Below are positions 8,491 through 49,000 of a stretch of DNA of 64,000 bases, piece after piece. A program made the position numbers and the translations under genes. Under the pieces are notes generated by a model. That model ran no database searches. It saw only the letters and a list, made by a program, of their open reading frames with translations, and was not told the DNA's origin. Positions within the stretch are counted from its first letter, which is position 1. Every line of letters begins with the position of its first letter. The DNA lies in assembly GCF_045679555.1 (NCBI RefSeq), contig NC_092120.1, positions 12,699,805 through 12,763,804 on the forward strand, read 5' to 3'. The stretch is from Salvelinus alpinus (taxonomy: Eukaryota; Chordata; Actinopteri; Salmoniformes; Salmonidae).

Positions 8491-8631
8491 ATAAAATCTA
8501 ATGCAGTGGTAGAAAGGCTGTGACCTAGAAAGGGATTGTTGTCTAAAATATGCTATTGAAGTCACAGATGGTTGGCTGTATGAGATCAAATGTTGGGAAA
8601 CTTCATTATAACAAAAACAACAATACTACAG

Positions 8632-9051
8632 TATCAACATGCTAGGTTGATGAAGAGGTTGCTGGAGCTATTGTATCAACATGCTAGGTTGATGAAGAGG
8701 TTGCTGGAGCTATTGTATCAACATGCTAGGTTGATGAAGAGGTTGCTGGAGCTATTGTATCAACATGCTAGGTTGATGAAGAGGTTGCTGGAGCTATTGT
8801 ATCAACATGCTAGGTTGATGAAGAGGTTGCTGGAGCTATTGTATCAACATGCTAGGTTGATGAAGAGGTTGCTGGAGCTATTGTATCAACATGCTAGGTT
8901 GATGAAGAGGTTGCTGGAGCTATTGTATCAACATGCTAGGTTGATGAAGAGGTTGCTGGAGCTATTGTATCAACATGCTAGGTTGATGAAGAGGTTGCTG
9001 GAGCTATTGTATCATCATACTAGGTTGATGAAGAGGTTGCTGGAGCTATTA
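8632..9051 (+). repeat. 42-bp minisatellite, ten near-identical units
   Basis: Ten units of 42 bp start at 8632, 8674, 8716, 8758, 8800, 8842, 8884, 8926, 8968 and 9010. The first nine appear identical; the last differs at a few bases. Each unit begins TATCAACATGCTAGGTTGAT. Because 42 is a multiple of three, one plus-strand frame (8590-9057) runs open through the array and would encode a 14-residue repeat, YQHARLMKRLLELL. There is no signal peptide, splice context or known family, so this is best read as a tandem repeat with an incidental open frame. Confidence 0.95.
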
Positions 9052-9469
9052 TGTTAGCCTTTGCATTGTTTTAGCACAAAATAGTCAAGCATATTGAAGT
9101 GGTGCTTTTCCATGTCATTCTCCAGCCAAGCTACACATGCAAGTAAACCAAGAGCTACAAACTAACTCCACCAATCTGGGTTGGAATCTACTAACTAGCT
9201 ACCAGCCTAGCCTATACATGACATTTGGTGAACCAACGAGCAGAATGATCGGGGAGGGGAGAGCTGCTGTCTGTTTTCACTCTCAGGCTAGAGGAAGGAG
9301 GCAGCTTTCGTTTCAGGGTGCCAGTAGGGAGGCACTATTTTGTAAGCTGTAATGGGGGAGTAGGGATAGGGGTGAAGGGAAGGGCCTTGGAGTGTGAGAG
9401 AGTAGGTTAGGAGGAAGGGAAGGGCAGTAGTAGAGGGGGTGGGGTACCACTGAATGGTGGCAAACCTCT
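9052..9469. other. Unassigned non-coding stretch
   Basis: G-rich in its second half (about 9340-9450). No gene or repeat recognised. Confidence 0.4.
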
Positions 9470-11080: not shown

Positions 11081-13268
11081 GTCCCTAGTGTGGACTGTTA
11101 TTGATATGACTGTGGCACACAGTTATCCCACTTATCGCCACCAACAAAACAGCTGCACCAGTGCACACACCTTCATGGGCATCTGTTACTGACATCATAT
11201 AATCTTTTCTTCAAATAGTATTCATGCTTATCATACAAACTGTAGCTAATTGGAGAGAAAACATGTTTTTACTGCCTGAAAAAGAAATACAAACTGATGT
11301 CAGAAAGCTAATCTAACTTTGCTGAAATCTCTACCTAGAAATGTTGTCAATCAATCAAATTTTACTTGCATAACACGTTGTAAAAAGCCAATTTGTCACA
11401 TTAACATGTATATAGTTATACAACCATAGATAACAGCCAAGAACAGTCATTGGTGCCTTGTTCCAGTTCCCCTGGATTCTTCCGTTGGTAATGACAGTAG
11501 CTAGGGAAAACAGACAAAGAGCCAGGTACCACTGTGCCACCGGAGGAGGTGACATCACTGCCTGTCACTTCCTGTCAAGGCCCTCGTCTCTCTCGCTCCC
11601 TCGCTGAGCCCTGAGCTCAAATGTCACACTCAGCACCTGCAATGCAGCAGGCAGGGACCGCTGCACAACCCGCTAAGATTGTGACATTGTGAGTGTTGTT
11701 GCTATACAAACGCTCCAACAGGAGTTTCAGTTTAGTCCAACGTGCCATATTGGAGTCAATATTGTGTTTGTTATCAAAGCAGAATTCAAATGTATAAATT
11801 TAGCTGAGTACATGTGATTGAAACCATGTTTAGGCCATTGATCACCATATGAATAACATGTTTTTCAAACATACTGGTGCTATAGTATACAATTTACTCT
11901 CCAATTTCTCTGTAATGTCTTGAAGCTATGGAAGGCTGATTTGGCCAAAAGACAGAAATATCATACTAGAGGCCTCACTCGACATGATTCTTTTTCTAGT
12001 TGAAAAGAAATCAACATCATTGCCTTGATGGCTGATTGAAGGTGTGAAGATCTGATTGACCAATTACTCCCCACTATGGGCTGAGGCCCGGATTGTTCCC
12101 TCTCTCATGGCTCTGCCACTGGGGGCAGTTTCTGGTTGATTGCCCTCGGACCACTCCCCCACAGAGCCCCACACAGTGGCATTCAACAAGACCCGTCAGG
12201 CCTTTCCACATGGTAGCACCTCATGCAATGGAGGCTTCGCCATGGCACATTCACAACCAAGCCAACTGTCACCTCAAATCAAACACCCAAACAAAACCAA
12301 AATCAAACACCTTCCCATATGAAAGAAAGAGGGGGAGAAATCAAATAAACAACCGTCTAGCTTAACAAAACTGGCCTCAAACAGATCTGTCCATTCGACT
12401 ATGTGCTGGCAGGGGACAACTTCCACAATCCAAATAACGTATGACATTAGAGGCCATAATCAGCAACCATACTTTCTATTAATTTCACCTGTTTTCCAAC
12501 AGCCTTAACTAAAAACCTATCAGCCGAGTACAGAATTGCTACAGTGGTAGGATGGTGTTACTTGCATCTACTGACTGGCCAATTTGTTAAGCATTTCAGC
12601 AAAGTCCGCAGTCAGCACCATTCAGGTTGCCGTTGGTTCTTTGGGACCTGCCCACCACTGCTGGCCATGTGATTGTAAGGATAAGCTGGTGCATGCAGCC
12701 CCACACAGAGGGATCTGGGGCTTATTAGATTACAAGTGATCCTGTTGGACCAACCGGGCTGTGAGGGACCAATGCCACCGGCCATGTGCAAATATGAGGA
12801 AATATGTGTATGGCATTGTGTATAACTCATTATTTTTAGAGATCAATCTCAAAGCGATCAGGATTTCCCAACTGTACGGCTCAGGGGAAAATCTCAATGC
12901 CTCAAAAATGTGAATACTCAAAGATGTAAATTTAGAAGAAACTCAACAAATACTCAAACTCTCAAATCTACTGCTAAAATTCTCAAAGGCAATTGTGATA
13001 TATTTGACGCAATAACAGAGACCAGATAGTTGTAATTGTCAAGCTGAGTTAAAAAGACACACACATGTACACATCACACATAAACCTGTGCAATTGGATG
13101 ACATCACACGACTTACTTGACTTTTTCTTCTGCTCCCAAGTCCTATGATGTCGGCCATTTTCGTTGCTTGTTTTGCTGTGAATGGTAGAATGGGGTGGTG
13201 CAGCATGGGGGATATGTGTTGGGGATCTTGATGCCTTTCAGGAGCGTAATGGGATTCTTGTTACTTTC
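11081..13268. other. Unassigned non-coding stretch
   Basis: A short piece at 11349-11400 (AATCAATCAAATTTTACTT) resembles a worn LINE 3' tail. The sequence around 12070-12250 is of even composition and may be conserved non-coding DNA. No gene recognised. Confidence 0.35.
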
Positions 13269-13318
13269 GGTTATCTAGCTTTATGAAGAATGTACATCAC
13301 TCATACAGCTAGATAACC
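13269..13318. repeat. 12-bp perfect inverted repeat (hairpin)
   Basis: GGTTATCTAGCT at 13269-13280 is the exact reverse complement of AGCTAGATAACC at 13307-13318, with a 26-base loop. It may be a small foldback element or the fused ends of a deleted MITE. Confidence 0.8.
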
Positions 13319-16300
13319 AAAGATAACAACCAACCCCTAAGGCTGCCCATCCTCTTGTGCCACAGGTGATATGCACGGGCCAGATTCTGACCTATAATCA
13401 GGAAAAAGACAGTATAAACAATCAGAAAAATTAAGACTTGAATTTCCCTTTTCAAACTTAAGTGCACCCTGAGTAAACTGTAGCAGTTCTATGGAGAGGT
13501 CTGGTCACATTCATGCAGTACCTAAAATGTAAGAAATGCTGATTATTTTAAATTAATCAACTTTAATCAAATGTGTACTTAACAGTTCACAAAAATACCA
13601 GAACCTCCTGACCCTCTGCTTAAAGTACTCATCAGCAATTGGCCACTTACTAACTGTAACATTTCCCTGCCAATCCACCCTCACTGTTCTGCTGTTACAA
13701 AGCCTTTGATTGGACGGCCAGCCCGTAACATGGCAGCCAAAGCCTTGACTCCTCAAAGTCAAATAATCAGCGTGAGGCTTGATCAAAACACCAGTCCAAA
13801 CTGGTTACGGCGCCAGTCTTCCCAGACCACTCCTCTCCACCCCTGCGCCCACCCCTATGGTGAGGCAGTCTTTCACAAGGACTGGCTCCATAGGAGGGTA
13901 ATGGCTTCAAACGCCGCCCCACGCCATGTCCAAATTTTTTTTTTTTTTAATTAAAACTGTTTTACTGTAAGATACAGAGAGAAGGGTTTGTCTCTTGCAT
14001 TTGCATATCTATTAGAGATTCCACACTAAATTGGGGAGGGCATGTTCAATGTTGGGGTCAGAATACGGCACAAAAGCACAAACACACACAAGTGCAAACC
14101 TACACACACAGATACACACACACACACACACAGAGTACACACATTTCTGGCACATGGCACAAGGGCCAATTAAAAGTTTTTTTGTCTGCCCAGGCCTACA
14201 ATGAGGCTCCTCCCATCTATACATGTTCTAATGACTGACAGGAGAGAGATGGACAGAGAGCGAGAAAGAAAGAGAACATTCTCCCCTTTAGTGTACACAT
14301 CTTTACCTGTAGTCTCACACTGTTGGCAGATAACACATCCTCTCCTTACTGTCAGCTAGAACAAGAATTCAAGCTTGAAAATGTATTCTATCTTATTTTG
14401 GTTCATAATCTACCAGTCACCATAAGGATTTCTAACCACCTTTATCATTTCTTACTACAGTATGCTACACAAGGACAAAGCAAGGCTCTTTGAAAGCATC
14501 CGCACTCGCAAACATGCATATTCCATACAGTACATTCACATACACCCATGCACGCAAGCACACACACACGTGCAAACCAAACAAAAGCGTGCACACATGC
14601 TGGAAATAGGAATGATACTATCTTTCCTGAAAAAGTGACTATTCACCCAGGAAGGTATTTATTCCTGCCAAGAACAAAATGCCATCAAAACAAAATACTG
14701 TTGCAGTTACAGAAATGTCCTGATCTCTACGTGTCTTTTTGTCAGAGAGTGAATTTACATGTTACAACATCATTTGAAATTATATCTGACATGGATATTG
14801 GATATACTTTGTTAAAATAATAAGACTTGATTATATAAGCATAAAGGGTTATCAGTACATCTATCGCAGTGATTCATTTGATTGTACTTATAATGCATGA
14901 AATTATTTTGAATTATACTGTTCCAGGATAAATATTTGAAATTCAACAAAATAATAATAATAATTTACTGTTTTTTTGATACTGTACACAGTATGTGAGA
15001 CAGTTGTGTGATTTATTTTTTAATTGCTAAGTTATTAGATAAAATAAATACTCATAATACTACCACCAATGATAAGTAACATTATATTCTCAACATTATA
15101 TTGAAAACAATCAAAAACATGTATTTTATGTTATTTTCAAGAAATTACATTTAACGTGTATTTCATCGTTTGCAGTGGAGAGTTGGAATTGGAAAGTTGT
15201 TGTTTTTATCAGCCCATTTTATTAACCTATATTATTAGCATTATTACTGTTATTATTATACTGTGCAAATTCCAAATAGTTTGATACGCAGTTGTGACGA
15301 TTCCTTCTGATAATGTCAATGCATTTGACCAACTTTATTTCAAGTAATAATAATAAACATTATTTAAGGAAATAAAGTAAGAAAGAATATGTTTCATATT
15401 AGGCCTACATTGCGCCAGATGCGATTACAAAGAACTCACACTGCGCCTCTGTAACGAAGCTCATCTCAGATTCAGCACCACAACAGTGGACAGCGGCCTT
15501 GTCTCTTAGTAGCCTTCAGAGCCAGGATTTCAACACCAAAATCCCCGATAAGCATATTAACTATCATACAATCAGTTTGTTAAAAATAACTGCATTTGTC
15601 TTCTTGTTTTAACAGTTTAACCTAGGCCTCCTACCCCTTGGTAAATTCAGATAGGCTTCTATGGCGCAGTAACATGCCAAGGAGAGATCCGGTTCGACTG
15701 TCTATTACTGCATCTTGCCAACCACATAATTGCCAAGGCGTATAACTCTTTCAGCCATTCATTCATTCATTCATTCAAACAAACCTAATCCCTCCTCGCC
15801 ATTGGATAAGACGTTGGTGACGTCCTTCAAATTTATGCTTAGGAATGATTGAAAATGTTTGATGAAGCAATACACAGTGCACATATTTTCTGTAGATTTA
15901 TTGTAGGTACAAAGAAAGTAGTTATAGCTTTATAATAAAGTGATCAATGTATGCCATTGAGATATGACGTGAATCGATGTAATTCAATCCAACCTGATCC
16001 GTAATGTATTGGCACAATGCTGTTGCCCAGGTCCCAATGCTTATGCACGAGGCACGAACTGAGGTCATTTCTAAATGTTCATCACATGTAATTGGCGCGG
16101 TCCATGCAATCTGTTGGCAGAGGGCCTAAGCTACTGTAGCCTACCGCTGCACACTGGAACCTTGTGGCGTCGTTATACCAACAGCGTCCACTGCTAATGA
16201 AAAATGACGAGCTTGACAAGTATGAACGCAAAGGTGTAGATAAGCAGTAAAATAACATTTCATTTCTGTATTCTCTTGTGAAATGATGATTAATACAGTA

Positions 16301-30618: not shown

Positions 30619-31600
30619 GTGACTGTATATGAAGTGCTTACTCATTGACCAGCATCTATTATTTATTCACAAATGACAATGCAAGGAAAATATAAAAGTT
30701 GGTCTTATAGACTCAACCCTATATGGATATGTCTTATAAGTTTCAGTTATTGGGCATCATCTGCCTAAAGATTTGTAAGTATTCTTAATGCTGCAGATAA
30801 TGAAACCTCATATTGAGGTTTAGTTCTGTTATGGATCTACCTGTAGGCAAATCTTATTGATAGGCCTAATATCAACATGGAATATTATCAAAAAGAACCA
30901 CAATTATATCTGTCATTTTTATAACTTTTTTTAATAGGCTTCTAATGAATTATAACTTCTTCATAGCCTTATTGCCATGGTTATTGTAAGCATGGTTTGA
31001 GCCTAGGGGTGTTGAATGTGGAGAAATGTAGCCCCCATCCTTCATGCAAAAAATAGCTTGTGCAGGATAGACCAATTCCTTGATAGAGGTCGCCACCAAG
31101 TGATTTTATTTGTCCATTACATAATGTCTTTTCCGAAAAACAGTGTTTTTTAAAATAGGCCTAATTATACCGATTTCCATTCTATTAATTTGCACGCAGT
31201 ATCCTAGCATTGTAATAAAACAATTTATGGGCTCATAGACTTTGTTTAAACGGTATAGGCCTTTAAGCCTAACAATACATGGCCATTCTATATCCATCAG
31301 CTGCTTTAAAATGGGATACTTTAAATAACATCAGCAACTGAGAGAGTAGGCATAATGTGTAGAACCAGAATCAATCAAACCCTAAACAACAGGGGTGAAA
31401 TGGCATGTTTACAGGTGTGTAAATACTACATGCAGATTCAATTGAATGAAGCCCATACACAGTCATGTCCTCATCTCAATGTGAGCATATATCAAACCAG
31501 TTAAAAAGCAATGTAAAAATGGCATAAATGGTGTAAGCCCTAAACAATGAATTCATGATATCTTTGGAACAGGTAAACTACGACCTTGCCATAAATTTTG
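30619..31600. other. Unassigned non-coding stretch
   Basis: AT-rich, no family recognised. Several TAGGCCTA motifs occur, as elsewhere in the window. Confidence 0.4.
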
Positions 31601-34478: not shown

Positions 34479-36235
<1,757 letters not shown>

Positions 36236-37608: not shown

Positions 37609-38690
37609 TGGCTCCAAGTCCAACTGGTTGAACGTCTAGGAACAGGCCAGTGTGAGAGGCCAACAGGGTGCCCATCTGTTTGCATTAATTCTCTTCTGCA
37701 AAACCCCACTACGTAAGCATCAAATCAAATCTTATGTTATTGCGGGTGTAGCGAAATCCTAGTCTGTCATCAGTCTGTCTAATAATAAACAGACACATTT
37801 GTTTCAATTATGGAGATACTGATACTGTAGGCTACTTCCAGATACAATATAATTTAATATTTCTGTGAAACCATGTCCTGTGACTACATTTGACAGCCCT
37901 TACCATTTGCTTCATAGGCTACTGACTAGATGGTGACGTAGGCTATGTGCGACAGACTGTAATATGAAACTAAATAAGATAGAAATACTGTATTAATATT
38001 TTCATTAGTCTGGAATGAATAACATTACGTGTTTATACTGGTGAAGTAGCCTTAAAACTTTACAGATGATTATGAGCAAATGAACATTCAAGCGTGTCAT
38101 GCGCTTCACACTACATCCGTACATTTTCATTTCTATGCAGACCAGCATCACACCTTTCCTCACTGTAAACACCATTTTCTTCCGCAGCCATGAGATAAAG
38201 TAGTTCATCATTGAAACGCTGCTCTGCTTTTCGCTCAGTGCGTAACCTACTCTTCAAGTCCGCAGAAATCGAAGTTTCCAATTCTACCTCATTGGGTGAT
38301 ACCCATTGTACAGGATTTGTATGTTACTTTCCGTAGGTTATGCTGGACCAAATACTACTTTATAGAGCTTATGGATGCACTTTTGTCCAACAGCATATAG
38401 CCAAATAATAAGACTAAATGCAAGATAAATGTATTGGGGGAAAACAGACACTTATAAAGTCAAATTATTGGCCATATTCAATAGCCTTACAAGAGGAAAG
38501 AGAATATTTATTTTGCTATTAGGCTACAAGGCCAACACATAAGACATCACTGGCATCACAATTGAAATGACACACTGCATTGTTTCAAACGCTGTGCGTA
38601 AATTCGAAAAGTAAGACAATATTGACAATGGATATCATGATTCAAATAGAGACGTTATTTCTTACAGTAAAACATAAGAGGCGGAGGGAT
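37609..38690. other. Non-coding stretch with a LINE-tail-like fragment
   Basis: 37722-37762 (TCAAATCTTATGTTATTGCG then GGTGTAGCGAAAT) looks like a deleted version of the repeat fragment at 63738-63806. The remainder is AT-rich and unassigned. Confidence 0.4.
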
Positions 38691-38699
38691 ACACTCACA

Positions 38700-39049
38700 C
38701 ATGATCTCACCATTAGTCCTTCCTACTTCACGGTTCACCTTCTACTAACTTCACGTTGACGACTCAAATCCTCTGACGTCTCCAGTGATTGGTTAAACAA
38801 CACGAAAATCTCTTGCCTATTGGTCCGGCTAGTGTCAATCATGAAGCAGTGCCAATCACGATAGATTGGGCAGCAGCAGCTACATTGTATCGTTTGACAG
38901 AACTAAATAGTTACCTTGTACTTCAAGAGGAATGATTTTAATTTTTTTTACTGACGTCGGTAGACAGCCTGTTTACATAATTTGTATTCCTCAATCAACA
39001 TTTTAAATACATAGTCATATATTTTTGAATCTCCGGTTTCACCAGACAG
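38700..39049 (+). promoter_or_regulatory. Candidate plus-strand promoter
   Basis: Four CCAAT boxes lie within about 85 bp: TGATTGG (38786), CTATTGG (38817), GCCAATC (38851) and GATTGGG (38863). Two CRE-type TGACGTC sites flank them (38774-38780 and 38952-38958). Regular NF-Y and CREB/ATF sites of this kind mark TATA-less housekeeping promoters. A short exon with a strong splice donor follows directly. CpG density is modest. Promoter function is inferred from motif clustering. Confidence 0.5.
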
Positions 39050-39070
39050 ATGTGGATACAGTTCTACAGG
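39050..39070 (+). CDS. Possible first coding exon (7 codons)
   Basis: An ATG at 39050 opens seven codons, MWIQFYR, that end exactly at a near-consensus splice donor, AGG|GTAAGT (GT at 39071-39072). The exon would end in phase 0. Upstream lies the promoter-like block with CCAAT and CRE motifs. I could not identify the gene or find the next exon in the window. The inverted repeat beginning at 39341 would lie in the first intron. Alternative: the exon is untranslated or the ATG is fortuitous. Confidence 0.3.
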
Positions 39071-39340
39071 GTAAGTCACTCTTCACAAGCTCGCTAACGT
39101 TACCCAGGTTAGCTACCTGCTAGTGAATGTGTTTGGTCAGTAACATTAGGCAACTGTTTACTTTGAATAACTTATATTTAACAACATGTTGCTTTCGAAT
39201 AGACACTTTCTGATGTCATTGAACTGAGGGCAACTCCAAGCAACCATATTTCGGTGTTGTGTTCGCGCGCTGTCTCGTGCTTTATTTTGAGTGTCAAGGG
39301 TAGACTACATGATGGAGAGTTTGCTTGCTGGGTTGTATTA

Positions 39341-39981
39341 CTTGCAAACTAGGGATTACTTTATGTCGCCTCAATGGTATGATACTAGCACAGTTAATAA
39401 ACGCCAATAATTGGTGATTGTATGGATGCTGGGATTCTCTTCCTTCATGAGCGCAACAGCCGTGGTGACCGTTCACCAGGAGCTGTCAGAACGATTTATG
39501 AAAAGTGTCACAGAGGTTTTGACACGATTACTCTTTTAATGTCTATGAATTGATTTTACTTAAGTGAGTAGAATGAATAGTTTACTGCATACTTTATTCC
39601 TATTGAGAGGCTATTGTTGGTTGTTCCTTCATGGCAGACACGCAGTTCGATGGAATATTTCTCCATCGGCAAGAGAGTTACAGCATAGCAAAGCGCAGAG
39701 AGAGCATCAATTTGTCAGAAAAAAAGTAATTTAAGGAACCTTTGGTATCAACGGAATGCGCATGTAAGCCAACGTTAATGTTTTGCGTCCATCAAATGGT
39801 AAACATTGGCAAAACACTTTTGACCTGACTGTATATGAATTTAACGGCGCAAAAATGGTTGCCTGTGGTATATTTGCTGTTTTCTCAAGGAAAAAGTGTC
39901 AACAAACTATTGATTTATTCTAAAATCCGGAATCCATTTTGCGCGTGAAAGTGTTGGAGATAGGATGTGTAGACTAAACCT
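39341..39981 (+). repeat. Left arm of a 641-bp near-perfect inverted repeat
   Basis: Compared base by base, this arm is the reverse complement of 40774-41412 except for one substitution (G in CACAGTT here, A in the other arm) and a two-base TT indel in CTCTTTTAATG. That is 638 of 641 columns, 99.5%. The arm starts CTTGCAAACTAGGGATTACT and ends GTGTAGACTAAACCT. Bases outside both outer ends (TTGTATTA on the left, GATGTCAT on the right) are unrelated, so there is no target-site duplication. No transposase or repeat family was recognised in it. Its position next to the promoter suggests this arm is the original and the other the copy, but this is a guess. Confidence 0.97.
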
Positions 39982-40773
39982 GTGGCACATGCGGGAATGA
40001 TGGTGGGAGCCTCTAATGATGTCAAAATTGAGGCCAGCACAGGAGACTCGTGAGGGCCAGTGTCTTCCAGAAAGACAAGAATAGATAAGGTAGGGGGAGC
40101 TGTGAGGGGGGGGGGGGGGGGTGTAAAGCTCCCATTAGCTCTGACATCTTGACAATGTCAGAGACAGCAGAGTTATTTTGTATTGGTTGGAATACCCAGT
40201 CCATGGCACTGGTCCTGACCCATATCGTCTCAAAGATGAAAACAGATTAGCCTTTATCAGGGTGAAAAGTATCATTTACCTTTTCTTATTTGTTTCTGAT
40301 CGTGTTCCCTGTCTTACCTGTAAGTACTCCTCAGCGGGAAACACAGGGGCATGTCCTTACCGGGACAGCTCATTGTCCTGTAATCTCCTACTCGGTCTCT
40401 GACTGCTCTGAGGCTTGCCAGGGCTGGTGAGAACCACTATCTGGACTGTGTCCCTGAGGACCCCGTCTCTGCCATGTGACACCCTGACGGGAATCACAAC
40501 GTGCACTATACCTGCCTGCATAGCTGAAACACTCATCAGTTTATGCCCCTCATTTATGGGGGGAGGGGAAATACATTAATATGTTTAATCCCACAAGTGA
40601 GACACTAAACTGTCACATATTGAGGGTTAGGCAGAGCATTAATTCAAATCACTAGACTTCCTATGTTACTGTAAAAACAACATGCCAGGGTAAAGGAAAA
40701 ACTGACAGAATATAATTTCTCTCTCATAGAATATTGGGAAAGAATTCCTAATACAACACACTAGTTACACTGA
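39982..40773. other. 792-bp spacer between the inverted arms
   Basis: Contains a G16 run (40106-40121) and a perfect 9-bp stem, CTCTGACAT (40139-40147) with ATGTCAGAG (40155-40163), around a 7-base loop. No gene or repeat recognised. Confidence 0.7.
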
Positions 40774-41412
40774 AGGTTTAGTCTACACATCCTATCTCCA
40801 ACACTTTCACGCGCAAAATGGATTCCGGATTTTAGAATAAATCAATAGTTTGTTGACACTTTTTCCTTGAGAAAACAGCAAATATACCACAGGCAACCAT
40901 TTTTGCGCCGTTAAATTCATATACAGTCAGGTCAAAAGTGTTTTGCCAATGTTTACCATTTGATGGACGCAAAACATTAACGTTGGCTTACATGCGCATT
41001 CCGTTGATACCAAAGGTTCCTTAAATTACTTTTTTTCTGACAAATTGATGCTCTCTCTGCGCTTTGCTATGCTGTAACTCTCTTGCCGATGGAGAAATAT
41101 TCCATCGAACTGCGTGTCTGCCATGAAGGAACAACCAACAATAGCCTCTCAATAGGAATAAAGTATGCAGTAAACTATTCATTCTACTCACTTAAGTAAA
41201 ATCAATTCATAGACATTAAGAGTAATCGTGTCAAAACCTCTGTGACACTTTTCATAAATCGTTCTGACAGCTCCTGGTGAACGGTCACCACGGCTGTTGC
41301 GCTCATGAAGGAAGAGAATCCCAGCATCCATACAATCACCAATTATTGGCGTTTATTAATTGTGCTAGTATCATACCATTGAGGCGACATAAAGTAATCC
41401 CTAGTTTGCAAG
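40774..41412 (-). repeat. Right arm of the near-perfect inverted repeat
   Basis: The inverted partner of 39341-39981, 639 bp, two bases shorter owing to one indel. Begins AGGTTTAGTCTACACATCC and ends CCCTAGTTTGCAAG. If transcribed together with the left arm the RNA could fold into a very long hairpin with a 792-base loop. The reading could also be an assembly or library artefact, which needs independent reads across both junctions. Confidence 0.97.
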
Positions 41413-41521
41413 GATGTCATGAAATAGTTTAAAGTGTTTGGGTATTGCAATTGGATGATTTGCACCCTCTTTCATTCTTTCTCATCCTCTTTCTCTTTCT
41501 TTCTCAACATGCACACACACT

Positions 41522-41717
41522 TGTTTATTTGACCTTTATTTAACTAGGCAAGTCAGTTAAGAACAAATTCTTATTTTCAATGACGGCCTAGGAACAGTGG
41601 GTTAACTGCCTTGTTTTGGGGCAGAACGACAGATTTTCACGTTGTCAGCTCGGGGATTCGATCTAGCAACCTTTCGGTTACTAGTCCAATGCTCTAACCA
41701 CTAGGCTACACACGACC
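41522..41717 (-). mobile_element. HpaI-type tRNA-derived SINE, antisense
   Basis: Read on the minus strand: a tRNA-like head with A box GTAGCCTAGTGGTTAGAGC (41709-41691), then AACCGAAAGGTTGC, then B box AGATCGAATCC (41664-41654), a body with CTGCCCCAAAACAAGGCAG, and the tail AAGAATTTGTTCTTAACTGA ending TAGTTAAATAAAGGTCAAAT. Layout and sequence match the HpaI SINE family of salmonids. The tail is shared with the L2-type LINE in this window. The copy looks close to full length. Confidence 0.92.
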
Positions 41718-43678
41718 TAAATTGGCAGATTGAGTGTATGTAGACTAGTGTACTTTCTCCTCATACAGTGAAAGGAAAGGCTTTAGCGACAAATAACTTT
41801 TAGGCTCAGCAAAGTAAAAGCCTTTTGTGTGCTTGAGAAGCGTGACCGCAAGCAAGGGGGCATCCTAGAAGTGCCAGAGAAGTCTCTTACTATTTAATAA
41901 CGGGCAACTCAAAAATCTAACTTAAATTATATTAAAGCAAATGGGTAACACTTTAGATTAAGTTGGTCTTATACCTATGTAATAACACTGTAATTACACA
42001 AGTAAAAACATAATGTTTATATGGCACCCTCAGAATAGCCATGCCACATGGTGGCTCCAGTCAAAAAAAGAAGATTCCTCTTGTTAACTCAGTCTCCAAG
42101 GAATAACAATCATCCTCTCATGCTGCAGCGTCCTGCTGAATTGCAAACACAGATGGTCAGCTATTGTGCTCTTCAGACATCTCACATGTGGCAGTCTATA
42201 TGGAATAATGACTGAATATGTTTTCATGTAAGTGTTTGAGTATGTGCCCATACAATTACTGTATTTTTATGTGTGGTATGTGTGTGTTTGTAAAATATTT
42301 GTTTTGGCGTGAGCGTCTGTATAGGGAGGGAGGGAATGACAGAGACACAGAGAGAGTAAGGATACTTGAGAAGGGATAGAAGTGGTGGTCTAGCAATCTA
42401 AAGAGCAAGTGATCAGCATAGCCCTAAATCTGCTGCCCAGAACATTCTATTGGTCAAAGCCTTCTCTCCTCCAATTACAGTGTAATTTCAATTAAGCACT
42501 AATATCTGGGACAATCAATGGTGTACTGGCCACCCCTTGCCTGACACAAATATTGATGTGATTTAATCACTGCCTAACCCTAGGCTGAAATAATGCCTGG
42601 ATAGTTCAAGTTAAATGTCTGTCTGACCCCCCCCATACACTGGCTTACCGATGACCTCATGTTATCTCGCTCTATTGCGATGGAAGACATCTTATCTTCA
42701 CTTCAGTCAGATAAGTATAGCCTCTGCTTATTGTCATGCCAAAAAAAACAATTGTTCCACCTGTAACAAACCAACAGCTTTGGAAAGAATGAGAGCATTT
42801 TAGTTATATCAAGTGTCACATAAGGAGTGTGTGCTTTCGCCGTGATCGTTTCATGGCCTCTTTTGTGTTTTTTTATTCCACGGCAGCTTTGCCCACTGCT
42901 TTTCCCACACTGTGTGTGGAGAGCAGGAAGAACTCCGCTGCACAGCAGGGTCCTACCTTCTGCCATTATGGCTGTGATTCAATCATCACAGGGCCTCACT
43001 TTACTCCAGCACACTGTAAGGGAAAGAAATGTCACCCTCTCTCGTCGCTTAATGGAGCCACAAGCCAACAGTGCTTTTCATCATGGCTAAGACCAACAGT
43101 CGCTTAAAGTGAGAAGTATACTGGCAAGCTTCACCTATCCATCCCCTCTCTTCCCATGTCATTTCAAAATGGCCTTCACTCAATGCTTCATCCTGAAATT
43201 GCAGCCAGAGGATCTCCACACAGGGCAAAGACCTACAGAGGTGTAATGTGGGAAGCAGTCCTGGCAACCTTTGTTTCCCAACCGTCCCTACAAGGATTAA
43301 AGCCCAGTGAGCTCTGCTTCTCCTCGGCTATAGGGCAGAAAACTCTTTACTTACCCAGGACTAATCTCTCCTCCAGCAAGCTCTTAATTGAGCCATCATC
43401 AGCAGCTGATTCAGGGGTTAAACATCAATTAAGGTAATGTGCAGAGAGGCGCAGCGGAGAGTAAGGGCTCCAGTCCAGAGGGCAAGGGAGGTCAACTAGG
43501 CCCTACGGTCCCTAAAGGAAAGAGGGGGATGGAGTGGGCCAGTGGAGGGGTTAGGATGCTCTGGGAGAGGTGGAGATCTGAAGTGCCCGCTTAGGGATGA
43601 GTGGTTTGGACAATGGAGTGGAGCAGGTTGATGGTGATAATGCTGGAGCCTGAGATTCTCTACCGATCAGTGGTAACT
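41718..43678. other. Non-coding stretch, part possibly conserved
   Basis: 42900-43440 is non-repetitive, of even composition, and contains CTCTTAATTGAGCC and CATCAATTAAGG motifs, compatible with a conserved non-coding block. Overlapping open frames there have no splice support or family. Purine-rich sequence follows at 43440-43620. Confidence 0.35.
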
Positions 43679-46035: not shown

Positions 46036-49000
46036 ACGGTCTGATGGAGTAGAGTCTTATTCTAAATACCAAAGGGTGGTTCTTGGCATACCCCCAATTT
46101 TAAAGGTGAAGTAGAGAGGGTTGCCATATTCTGAACACGATTGTAGGTAGCCTATTGTAGGCTCCCATTTTGCATCTTTTACTACCCTTCAGATTTGATT
46201 CCCACCCACCTTTCTTGATCATTTTGAATAAGCAGAGGTGATTGAATGTTATGAAATAACCTGAATAGCAGTGAAACAGCTGAAATCCTCTCATATTATT
46301 TAGAAATACTTTATTTGACTTGAAACGGCTGCTTGCTCTCTAGCGGAGGTTCAAACACCTTCAACCTGAGCATGTAGAACTTCGCACCAGTTAATTGGGT
46401 ACAAGGACGCAATGTATCCAACGGTTCCAACACACCAAAGAGTAATCTCATGAGCATTTGAATCTGTTACATCCGTTCTCTGAACTGAAAAACTATGAGA
46501 ACTGACTGGTGTCACTCTGAAAAACTAGTTCCCTGAAACGAGGTGGTTGCTTTTGTGCGACCACCGGTGTCAGCTTACAACAAAAATAGCAGCTGCTCGC
46601 GTCTTGAAGGGGAAGTTAGGTTCCAAATCTCTGCTTAGAATTCAACCATAGACTTAAAGCCATAAATGGTATAGCGATTAGCGTTCCATTGAACTGCCGG
46701 TCATAAAAGCATACCAATGATTCCCTATTCATTTGATATACGGTAGCATTCATCAATTCTCACTGGAGCCATTAGTCTACCATAGCTAAAATAACATGTT
46801 TTTTTATGTATGTCTCAGCTCCAAATGGTCACACTTGATCCTTATTGCGGTAACAGCATTAGTTAGCATGTTAACATCTCACATTGATAAGATGGACTCC
46901 TAAAGATGAAGAGATCTTCCGTGGTTCTTGCAAGGGCAGCTAAATTCACTGAAATGACCCATCTCAACAGTTCTTCAAAAGTTGGTTTATCACCAGATAC
47001 CATTGTCTTGTGATTGGTTTGCGCACCGTGTTTCTATATGTATGTCAATCATGCATCAGGTTATAGCTTACAGTGATCAATCCATGAGGATCTGTTTCAT
47101 AAAAATATAGCTGAAGAGAAAAAAATGAATGGTAAATCCTTACACCCAGTTGTTGCTTTTCTCTAAAAAATACTCTGCTCAGGGCACTACATTTATCCAG
47201 TCCGCCTCTAAAGACATTGCTTGAAATATACAGCTTTGGAGCAAAACATTGAAATCTGGGTTGACCTCCTTTTGGCTAGTAGGTAGAAACAGATGAATAA
47301 ATCAAAATGGTGAATGCACGTAACATGTATTTTTATCTGGGATTATGGAATCTGTAGGAGTATATTAAAACTCCCTCATTCCGTTTCATGACGGTGTCCA
47401 TATCCTTTTGTTTTCATTGTTCTTCTCTATCACTCAGTTGTTTTGCCAGAGGCTTTATCCAGATTAAGTCGAATTTCCCTCCTCTTAATATACTCTTTGC
47501 GAATAGAAAGGGTAATCTTGCATAAAGCCAACCGAATGGGCTTTTTTGGGGGTCTTTGGTGGGATCAAGGGGCGGTGGGATCAAGACATCACAACCTATG
47601 TAGGCTAAATGCAACTTAGCTGTACACATATGCAAGATTATCATTAACAAATGAGTCTGAGATGAGCAAGGATTTGGAACACAAAGTGTTACACTACACC
47701 ACACTGGGGCCAGCGTGACCTTGACTGGTGTCAATGTAATTACATTTTGTGTTCATTCAGTTCAAATCAGGCAAGCCTTTTTTCTGTCATTTTCTACAGA
47801 AAAGATGTCAAAGAAACAAGGTAATGAGATCAGTATTTAGAAAATCTATTGAGTTGTGCACAAATGGAGGTGCTTTTTAGAGGAACCAGAAAGAGGCCAC
47901 CTTCCCTCAATGCAGAGTAATTATGGTGATGGTCTTGTCTCCTTTCCTCACAGCGGCTCCCAAACAAACATGGTTCATAACTAACCTGAACCAGTGTGTT
48001 CAGGTAATGTTAGATTTAATGTAAGGGGACAGGACGTTGGATCAGGATCAGCGACCACCAGTGAACTGTATTTAATCAGAGTATAGGATGAAGCCTTTGG
48101 GAAATGCAACCTGTGTTCTTTGGAAAATGCAGCTGAATCCATTGGAAAATGTGAAAACTTAAATTACAGTGGGAAGATCTGTCATTGCTACGAGAGTTCA
48201 AAAGCATCCAGGAGAGAGACAAAAGTAGAAAGAAAGAGGGAGAAAAGAGGCTTCCACAACTGTAGAGAACTATAATAATCCCAACTTAGAGACAAAGAGA
48301 AAAAGAGCAAGTGAGACCAATCGCCAGCTATGCCGCTGTGCTGACAGGGTTACAGTGTTGCGAGAGCAGGGGATGGCCATCACTTCTGCACAGCTGAAAC
48401 GGCAAGCGCCCGGCCCAGGAGCTGAAACACTACACCTCCGCCTCTCACACACCTCTCTCCTTCTTCTCTCCCTCTTTCCCTTTGATCTCAAGTCCTGCCA
48501 TTACTTGGTCTTCATCTTTTCCAAACTCCCTTATTTTTTATTTTTTTTCTTATTCCTCCCAAACCTGTGTCTTACATTTCTCATATCACTGATTTACGGC
48601 ATATGCTGTAAGTTGTGCCCTCAATTGAATGTATATCACCCTTTCCTCACTGGGGCGTGGTATAGTTTTATGGTTGTACAGTAATGGGGCCATCTGCACA
48701 GGGCTCTTTGAGTTAGCCGTGCGCTCCATGCAGGGTGTGTTAGTTTACGTTGGGAGGGAAGATGACTGGCTTATTCCTTTTCTCTTGTGAAGCAGCCATT
48801 ACCCAGAGCTGGGAATGGTTCCAGTGAGTCAGAGATAGAGGAGGAGAGTAAAAAATCCCCTCTCCACCCTTCCAAAGTGACACACTTCCCATTTTGTGTG
48901 TGTGTGTGTGAGCATGCTGGTCTGGTACTGATCCCCAGCAGCAATCTGAGTAGTGTGGACAACAATTGGGAAAGGCAATCTGATGTTACAATGGAACAAG

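Follow-up and report, generated by a model that had tools for sequence, protein, structure and literature searches.

The DNA analysed here is a stretch of 64,000 nucleotides from Salvelinus alpinus, referred to below as the window, which corresponds to C35:12699805-12763804 in an assembly of 2.37 Gb and 928 contigs. Positions are given as window coordinates unless a contig is named. The order of features in this part of contig C35 is a link-domain gene (Pfam Xlink, E 1.2e-24), a mir-9 precursor, the inverted repeat treated here, mef2d, and a gene for a nestin-like intermediate filament protein (Pfam Filament, 1.3e-26); mef2d and nestin are presumed identities. The mir-9 precursor at 13255-13332 (Rfam RF00237, 79.9 bits on the minus and 62.9 bits on the plus strand) lies about 26 kb from the inverted repeat on the side opposite to mef2d, and it is the sole Rfam match in the window, arms and spacer of the inverted repeat being without a match at the gathering thresholds. 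MADS-domain exons of mef2d are located beyond the end of the window at about 79214 and 81377. An earlier note on this DNA had proposed that the repeat may affect the first intron of a gene whose candidate first exon would lie at about 39.0-39.07 kb. For mef2d this is unsupported, as the first exon recognisable as coding, at about 79214, is found 38 kb downstream of the repeat. A run of N at 81252-81375 abuts the exon match at 81377, and part of this exon may be missing. In the mef2d region, an open reading frame of 133 amino acids near 92.8 kb contains two stretches of Pfam HJURP_C (4.4e-19) and gave no match in a PDB search up to an E value of 10; a frame at 114 kb, also taken as mef2d, yielded no Pfam family in a search of four open reading frames. 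Within the window, a 42-bp tandem repeat of ten units (99% matching) occupies 8631-9050 inside a single open frame (8584-9054). In a non-exhaustive literature search on salmonid inverted repeats, inversions and ohnologs, and on mef2d, mir-9 and the salmon genome duplication, none of the listed titles and abstract beginnings dealt with this locus.

From 29.3 to 54.4 kb the window is collinear with about 20 kb of contig C4, and this order is broken by insertions, by matches between repeats and by a pair of inverted stretches. A mef2d exon is located downstream of both loci (C35:12813977 and C4:45862049, 99% identical as protein), four further matches to this exon reaching 46-63%, and the two regions are therefore duplicates. 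Their collinearity and the genome size, together with a suggestion in the earlier note, indicate that they are probably ohnologs of the salmonid genome duplication. Mean identity to C4 is 90%, and 120-bp segments which are 98-100% identical occur at 30660-30879, 35040-35239, 46160-46399 and 47220-47419; these four stretches are candidates for conserved regulatory elements.

The inverted repeat at 39341-41412 had been described as two arms of 641 bp which differ by one substitution and one indel. This description was confirmed. The arms comprise 641 and 639 nucleotides around a spacer of 792 nucleotides, with an identity of 99.532% over 641 columns in BLAST, and the differences between them are a single G/A substitution and a single 2-nucleotide indel (TT), the latter splitting the arm match into two ungapped pairs. 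A match of such length cannot be due to chance. As had also been noted, the outer flanks share no target-site duplication when judged by eye. A BLAST scan of 264 kb, which covered the window and 100 kb on either side, yielded 125 inverted pairs, three of them with a length of 300 bp or more and an identity of 95% or more. These are the repeat at 39341-41412 and two pairs, just one of them closely spaced, which involve a sequence of about 1.55 kb outside the window with open reading frames that look like Tc1 transposase. An inverted pair of 1.54-kb sequences, 97% alike and separated by 312 bp, occupies -13711 to -12171 and -11858 to -10317; with its Tc1-like transposase frames it is a common inverted repeat made by transposons, unlike the one at 39341-41412.

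When the arm was searched against its own assembly, where counts for repeats are lower bounds, three places were returned, namely both arms and C4:45797257-45797889 (90%). The spacer was returned from two places, itself and C4:45797890-45798654 (91%, opposite strand). In the same kind of search a dispersed repeat of the right flank gave about 40 scored matches, versus three for the arm. The copy number of the arm, which the earlier note had suggested to determine, thus argues against an ordinary transposon, and its remark that no transposon family is recognised in the arms holds, one of the three places being the single copy in the duplicated region.

A comparison with the ohnologous locus had been suggested as well. 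On C4 a single arm is present, and the spacer has the opposite orientation. This inversion of the spacer had been overlooked in the earlier note, and it shows the probable origin of the arms. With L and R denoting the flanks, A the arm, S' the spacer as it stands on C4 and rc the reverse complement, C4 reads L-A-S'-R, whereas L-A-rc(A S')-R is found in the window, with matching flanks on both sides (Table 1). BLAST yielded three blocks: window 37734-39981 corresponds to C4 45795640-45797889 (+), window 39979-41412 to C4 45798657-45797257 (-), and window 41411-41478 to C4 45798665 onward (+).

Table 1: Features of the rearranged region in window coordinates, with strand.
Feature	Position	Strand	Relation to C4 and remarks
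Left flank L	37734..39340	+	Collinear with C4:45795640-45797256; 101 mismatches in 1589 aligned
Left arm A	39341..39981	+	C4:45797257-45797889; private 2-nt TT insertion; position and orientation unchanged if the C4 form is ancestral
New junction 1 (A/S)	39979..39981	+	3-bp microhomology CCT
Spacer S	39982..40773	-	Reversed versus C4:45797890-45798654; 32 mismatches in 757 aligned
Conserved spacer core	40320..40580	-	7 mismatches to C4 over 260 aligned positions; limits set post hoc
Right arm A'	40774..41412	-	Inverted copy of A; private G>A (in A orientation)
New junction 2 (A'/R)	41411..41412	+	2-bp microhomology AG; 7-12 bp (AGGACACGGTAG in C4) lost
Right flank R	41413..41478	+	C4 order resumes from 45798667

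The right arm A' adjoins S in the window just as A adjoins S' on C4, and when the reverse complement of S and A' is set between the flanks, the alignment of window and C4 continues unbroken across the A-S' boundary. Five arrangements were built from the C4 sequence, and each was aligned to window 38741-41478. Best among them was the product of a single step, with a score of 2033 and 2504 of 2738 window bases identical. The scores of the others were 345.5 for no event, 1000 for a fold-back only, 1263 for an inversion of the whole block only and 1266.5 for an inversion of the spacer only; the fold-back and one-step products are equally long, and the other three are shorter and hence penalised. 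Three features of the structural variant class dupINVdel are seen here: S lies on the minus strand relative to the reference copy on C4, a flank is duplicated in inverted form at one end, and at the other end sequence is lost, the size of the loss depending on how the microhomology is assigned. The window can likewise be written in the four-point notation of template switches as L->1, a reversed 2->3 and 4->R, and staggered breaks yield the same product.

From parsimony between these two loci of one assembly we infer that the form in the window is derived and the form on C4 ancestral. The reverse direction would need an exact end-to-end loss of one arm together with a reversal of the spacer on C4, and would also need arms kept 99.5% alike yet 8% distant from C4. 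If the C4 form came first, the ends of the arms need no further explanation than switch points, boundaries made by the event itself. C4 agrees with one arm at each of the two arm differences, and its use as outgroup makes G>A derived in A' and the TT insertion derived in A. One private derived change per arm would fit a young duplication, although two changes are too few to argue against conversion; the ongoing conversion between the arms which the earlier note had listed as an alternative is unsupported, if possible. Mismatches to C4 amount to 50 of 628 positions in A, 51 of 628 in A' and 87 of 1443 in a block to the right (41890-43390), next to the values for L and S in Table 1; between the arms there is one substitution in 639 positions. 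Divergence of the arms is 0.025 of the divergence between the duplicates on C35 and C4 (95% interval 0.0006-0.137). The salmonid duplication has been placed at about 88 million years ago (PMC6553544), and if the copies have diverged since then, the event would be about 2 million years old, with a range of 0.05-12 million years; a later rediploidisation would lower this estimate, and gene conversion between the arms would turn it into an underestimate. With arms at about 2.5% of the ohnolog divergence, the recent inverted duplication which the earlier note had considered is supported, unless gene conversion hides its age.

At the first new junction (39981/39982) CCT is common to two sequences: A, which ends in ...AAACCT, and the C4 sequence immediately beyond S', which as reverse complement ends in ...GTGTCCT. 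At the second (41412/41413) AG is common to the end of A' (...GCAAG) and the sequence preceding R (...GGTAG). The 12 bases AGGACACGGTAG of C4 are absent from the window, which means a loss of 7-12 bases once the microhomology is allowed for. A total of at least five bases of microhomology over two random junctions has a probability of about 0.027 when equal base frequencies are assumed; the 3 + 2 bp at the switch points are short and, being only weakly beyond chance, suggestive at most.

The rearrangement at 39341-41412, made from unique sequence and of a known class, is probably real and probably young. The explanation we favour, at slightly better than even chances, is a single rearrangement on one of two duplicated loci, in which replicative template switching converted L-A-S'-R to L-A-rc(A S')-R. 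We infer that the mechanism was most likely of the MMBIR/FoSTeS type and inter-strand. The nascent strand would have halted at the end of A (point 1), would have found a new primer site in the CCT that ends S' (point 2), would have copied about 1.4 kb back through S' and A up to the start of A (point 3), and would have rejoined at R via AG (point 4) with the loss of the 7-12 bp. In this scheme the four-point order would be 3-1-2-4, and the name of the structural variant dupINVdel. The inverted repeat is explicable in this way without any function.

The same arrangement might have been reached in two steps, which we consider unlikely, although it is one of the two main rivals. A fold-back template switch (3-2-1-4) would have led to L-A-S'-A'-R, and exchange between the arms would then have flipped the spacer, so that the locus could toggle in the population. 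The same junctions are expected from this route, as a flip of S between identical arms leaves the junction pair unchanged; moreover, the order 3-2-1-4 is one of two majority event types described in great apes (PMC7954356), and spacer inversion is known between the arms of a long inverted repeat (PMC7584159) and between short inverted repeats in yeast (PMC8604942). The fold-back product alone, however, scores 1000 versus 2033, so that the later flip is required, and two events are invoked where one suffices; the one-step event is preferred because one event is simpler than two.

An inversion by staggered breaks, the other main rival, with paired nicks separated by 641 nt on the left side of S', a near-clean break at its right end, rejoining in reversed orientation and filling of the overhangs, is predicted to leave an inverted segment with terminal inverted duplications in the inverted state only (PMC7584159), and the microhomology and the small loss would suit end joining. 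From the sequence of the window by itself, staggered breaks and template switching are inseparable. A stagger of 641 nt would, however, be required at just one breakpoint, and in the published case the length of unwinding made the single-chromatid form less favoured (PMC7584159), so that we regard this origin, too, as unlikely. A chimeric join of reads or haplotypes in the assembly is improbable. In principle, an assembly might combine the two haplotypes of a heterozygous inversion into a structure of this kind. Yet the A/S junction would not come from joining L-A-S'-R to an inverted haplotype, as it is present in neither, and a fold-back read would by reasoning yield L-A-S'-rc(S')-rc(A), unlike the window; furthermore, the window contains no N, and the arms are not identical, each having a change of its own. 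Quite improbable is an old inverted repeat homogenised by gene conversion, with one arm deleted and the spacer turned round on C4: there are repeated reports of long inverted repeats being homogenised (PMC8604942), but the loss on C4 would have to match both arm ends exactly and to accompany a spacer flip. That arms and spacer are a transposon or another mobile element with inverted repeats, as the bracketing of a spacer by inverted arms might suggest, has next to no probability and was dropped, because far more copies would be expected of such a family than the one other copy, at the corresponding place of the duplicated region, which was returned for arm and spacer each (counts being lower bounds), and the many dispersed copies and the target-site duplication of a DNA transposon or foldback element were absent from the own-assembly search and, by eye, from the outer flanks, respectively.

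Accidents of replication and repair such as the favoured template switching are already known, and the event in the window is a neat example of them and no new kind of element. Human complex variants of the dupINVdel and dupINV classes likewise combine an inversion with the duplication of one flank and a deletion at the opposite end (PMC5338099). In the description given there, dupINVdel is among the automatically resolved classes, and MMBIR/FoSTeS is named among the ways in which inversions with copy-number changes at their flanks could arise. The resolution of that study was about 5 kb, whereas the event in the window comprises a 641-bp duplication and a 792-bp spacer, and it is seen between duplicated loci of one assembly instead of among individuals. 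The four-point model of short-range template switches (PMC7954356) fully describes the window, although the reversed fragment of about 1.4 kb is far longer than the short-range events treated there, for which a mutation cluster and the surrounding tens to hundreds of nucleotides are examined; this length counts against the favoured mechanism. The order 3-1-2-4 is not mentioned in the main text of that paper; according to its logic this order, with point 2 ahead of point 1, would be inter-strand only. A microinversion at an O7 breakpoint of Drosophila subobscura, inferred to comprise 2,026 bp with terminal inverted duplications of 59 bp, is likewise roughly 2 kb in size and likewise ends in inverted duplications, but these are far shorter than the 641 bp in the window, and the microinversion belongs to a 9.9-Mb chromosome inversion, unlike the window (PMC7584159). 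Staggered breaks, template switching and a later spacer flip were all weighed in that case, and repair rather than staggered breakage was named as a possible source of such footprints (PMC7584159). In RNA hairpins born from template switches one mutation likewise creates a perfect inverted repeat; the largest pattern described there has 59 bp, and the hairpin of the window is a predicted one (PMC8794818). An origin by MMBIR has been put forward for human-chimpanzee microinversions of 17-33 nt which have inverted repeats on either side (PMC8755829).

The spacer has diverged less from C4 than the arm has (32/757 versus 50/628, Fisher p 0.004) and less than L together with the right block (Fisher p 0.037), and arm and L plus right block show no significant difference (p 0.11), all three comparisons being chosen post hoc. 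The conserved core of the spacer is possibly an exon or a regulatory element which is now reversed; in C4 orientation it has AG..GT-like borders by eye. A coding exon in the spacer was considered but is not supported by the frame analysis, the three spacer frames among the 30 listed showing 3 silent and 3 replacement, 3 and 4, and 1 and 2 codon differences to C4, respectively. One consequence of the rearrangement may be that a conserved element upstream of mef2d is reversed. Another may be a hairpin of 640 bp, if the repeat is transcribed. The earlier note had expected a hairpin of more than 600 bp, and folding supports this: an RNA of 39341-41412 is predicted to be very stable with a minimum free energy of -1448.7 kcal/mol, versus -574.9 kcal/mol for an equal length of C4, and all but 2 of the 641 bases in the left arm (639) pair with the right arm. 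The part as dsRNA or ADAR substrate which that note had raised is unsupported and would depend on transcription through both arms.

Since the duplicated region preserves the likely state before the event beside the state after it, the locus illustrates clearly how unique DNA can give rise to a long, near-perfect inverted repeat, and pairs of ohnologs could serve to catalogue such events and to measure their rate. As a speculation, the locus would become a test case of regulatory divergence after duplication if the spacer core, reversed in one copy, served mef2d or the nearby mir-9 transcript as an exon or enhancer. It is also conceivable, although a long shot, that the near-identical arms let the spacer flip in the population, the element upstream of one mef2d copy being held in either orientation; if true, the flipping spacer would be a natural, recently born genomic switch by which duplicates are regulated differently.

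Beyond 41478 the order in the right flank differs between the two loci. A unique block (41708-41850) is preceded by a dispersed repeat (41521 to about 41709) in the window, and on C4 this block (45798756-45798880) is followed by the repeat (45798919 onward); a further short block and the window from 41890 onward are back in C4 order. Most of the scored matches of the repeat at 41521-41709 in its own genome, which came from 2001 candidates, are 93-97% identical. The difference in order is most simply explained by two separate insertions of one repeat family, and it shows that the area is otherwise not untouched. A second, small inversion of about 148 bp, with C4:45792052-45792199 as its counterpart, lies at 35943-36090, at a distance of 3.3 kb from the inverted repeat, and has no long arms; it is about 6% diverged and therefore older, and C4 carries about 1.4 kb of extra sequence beside its counterpart.
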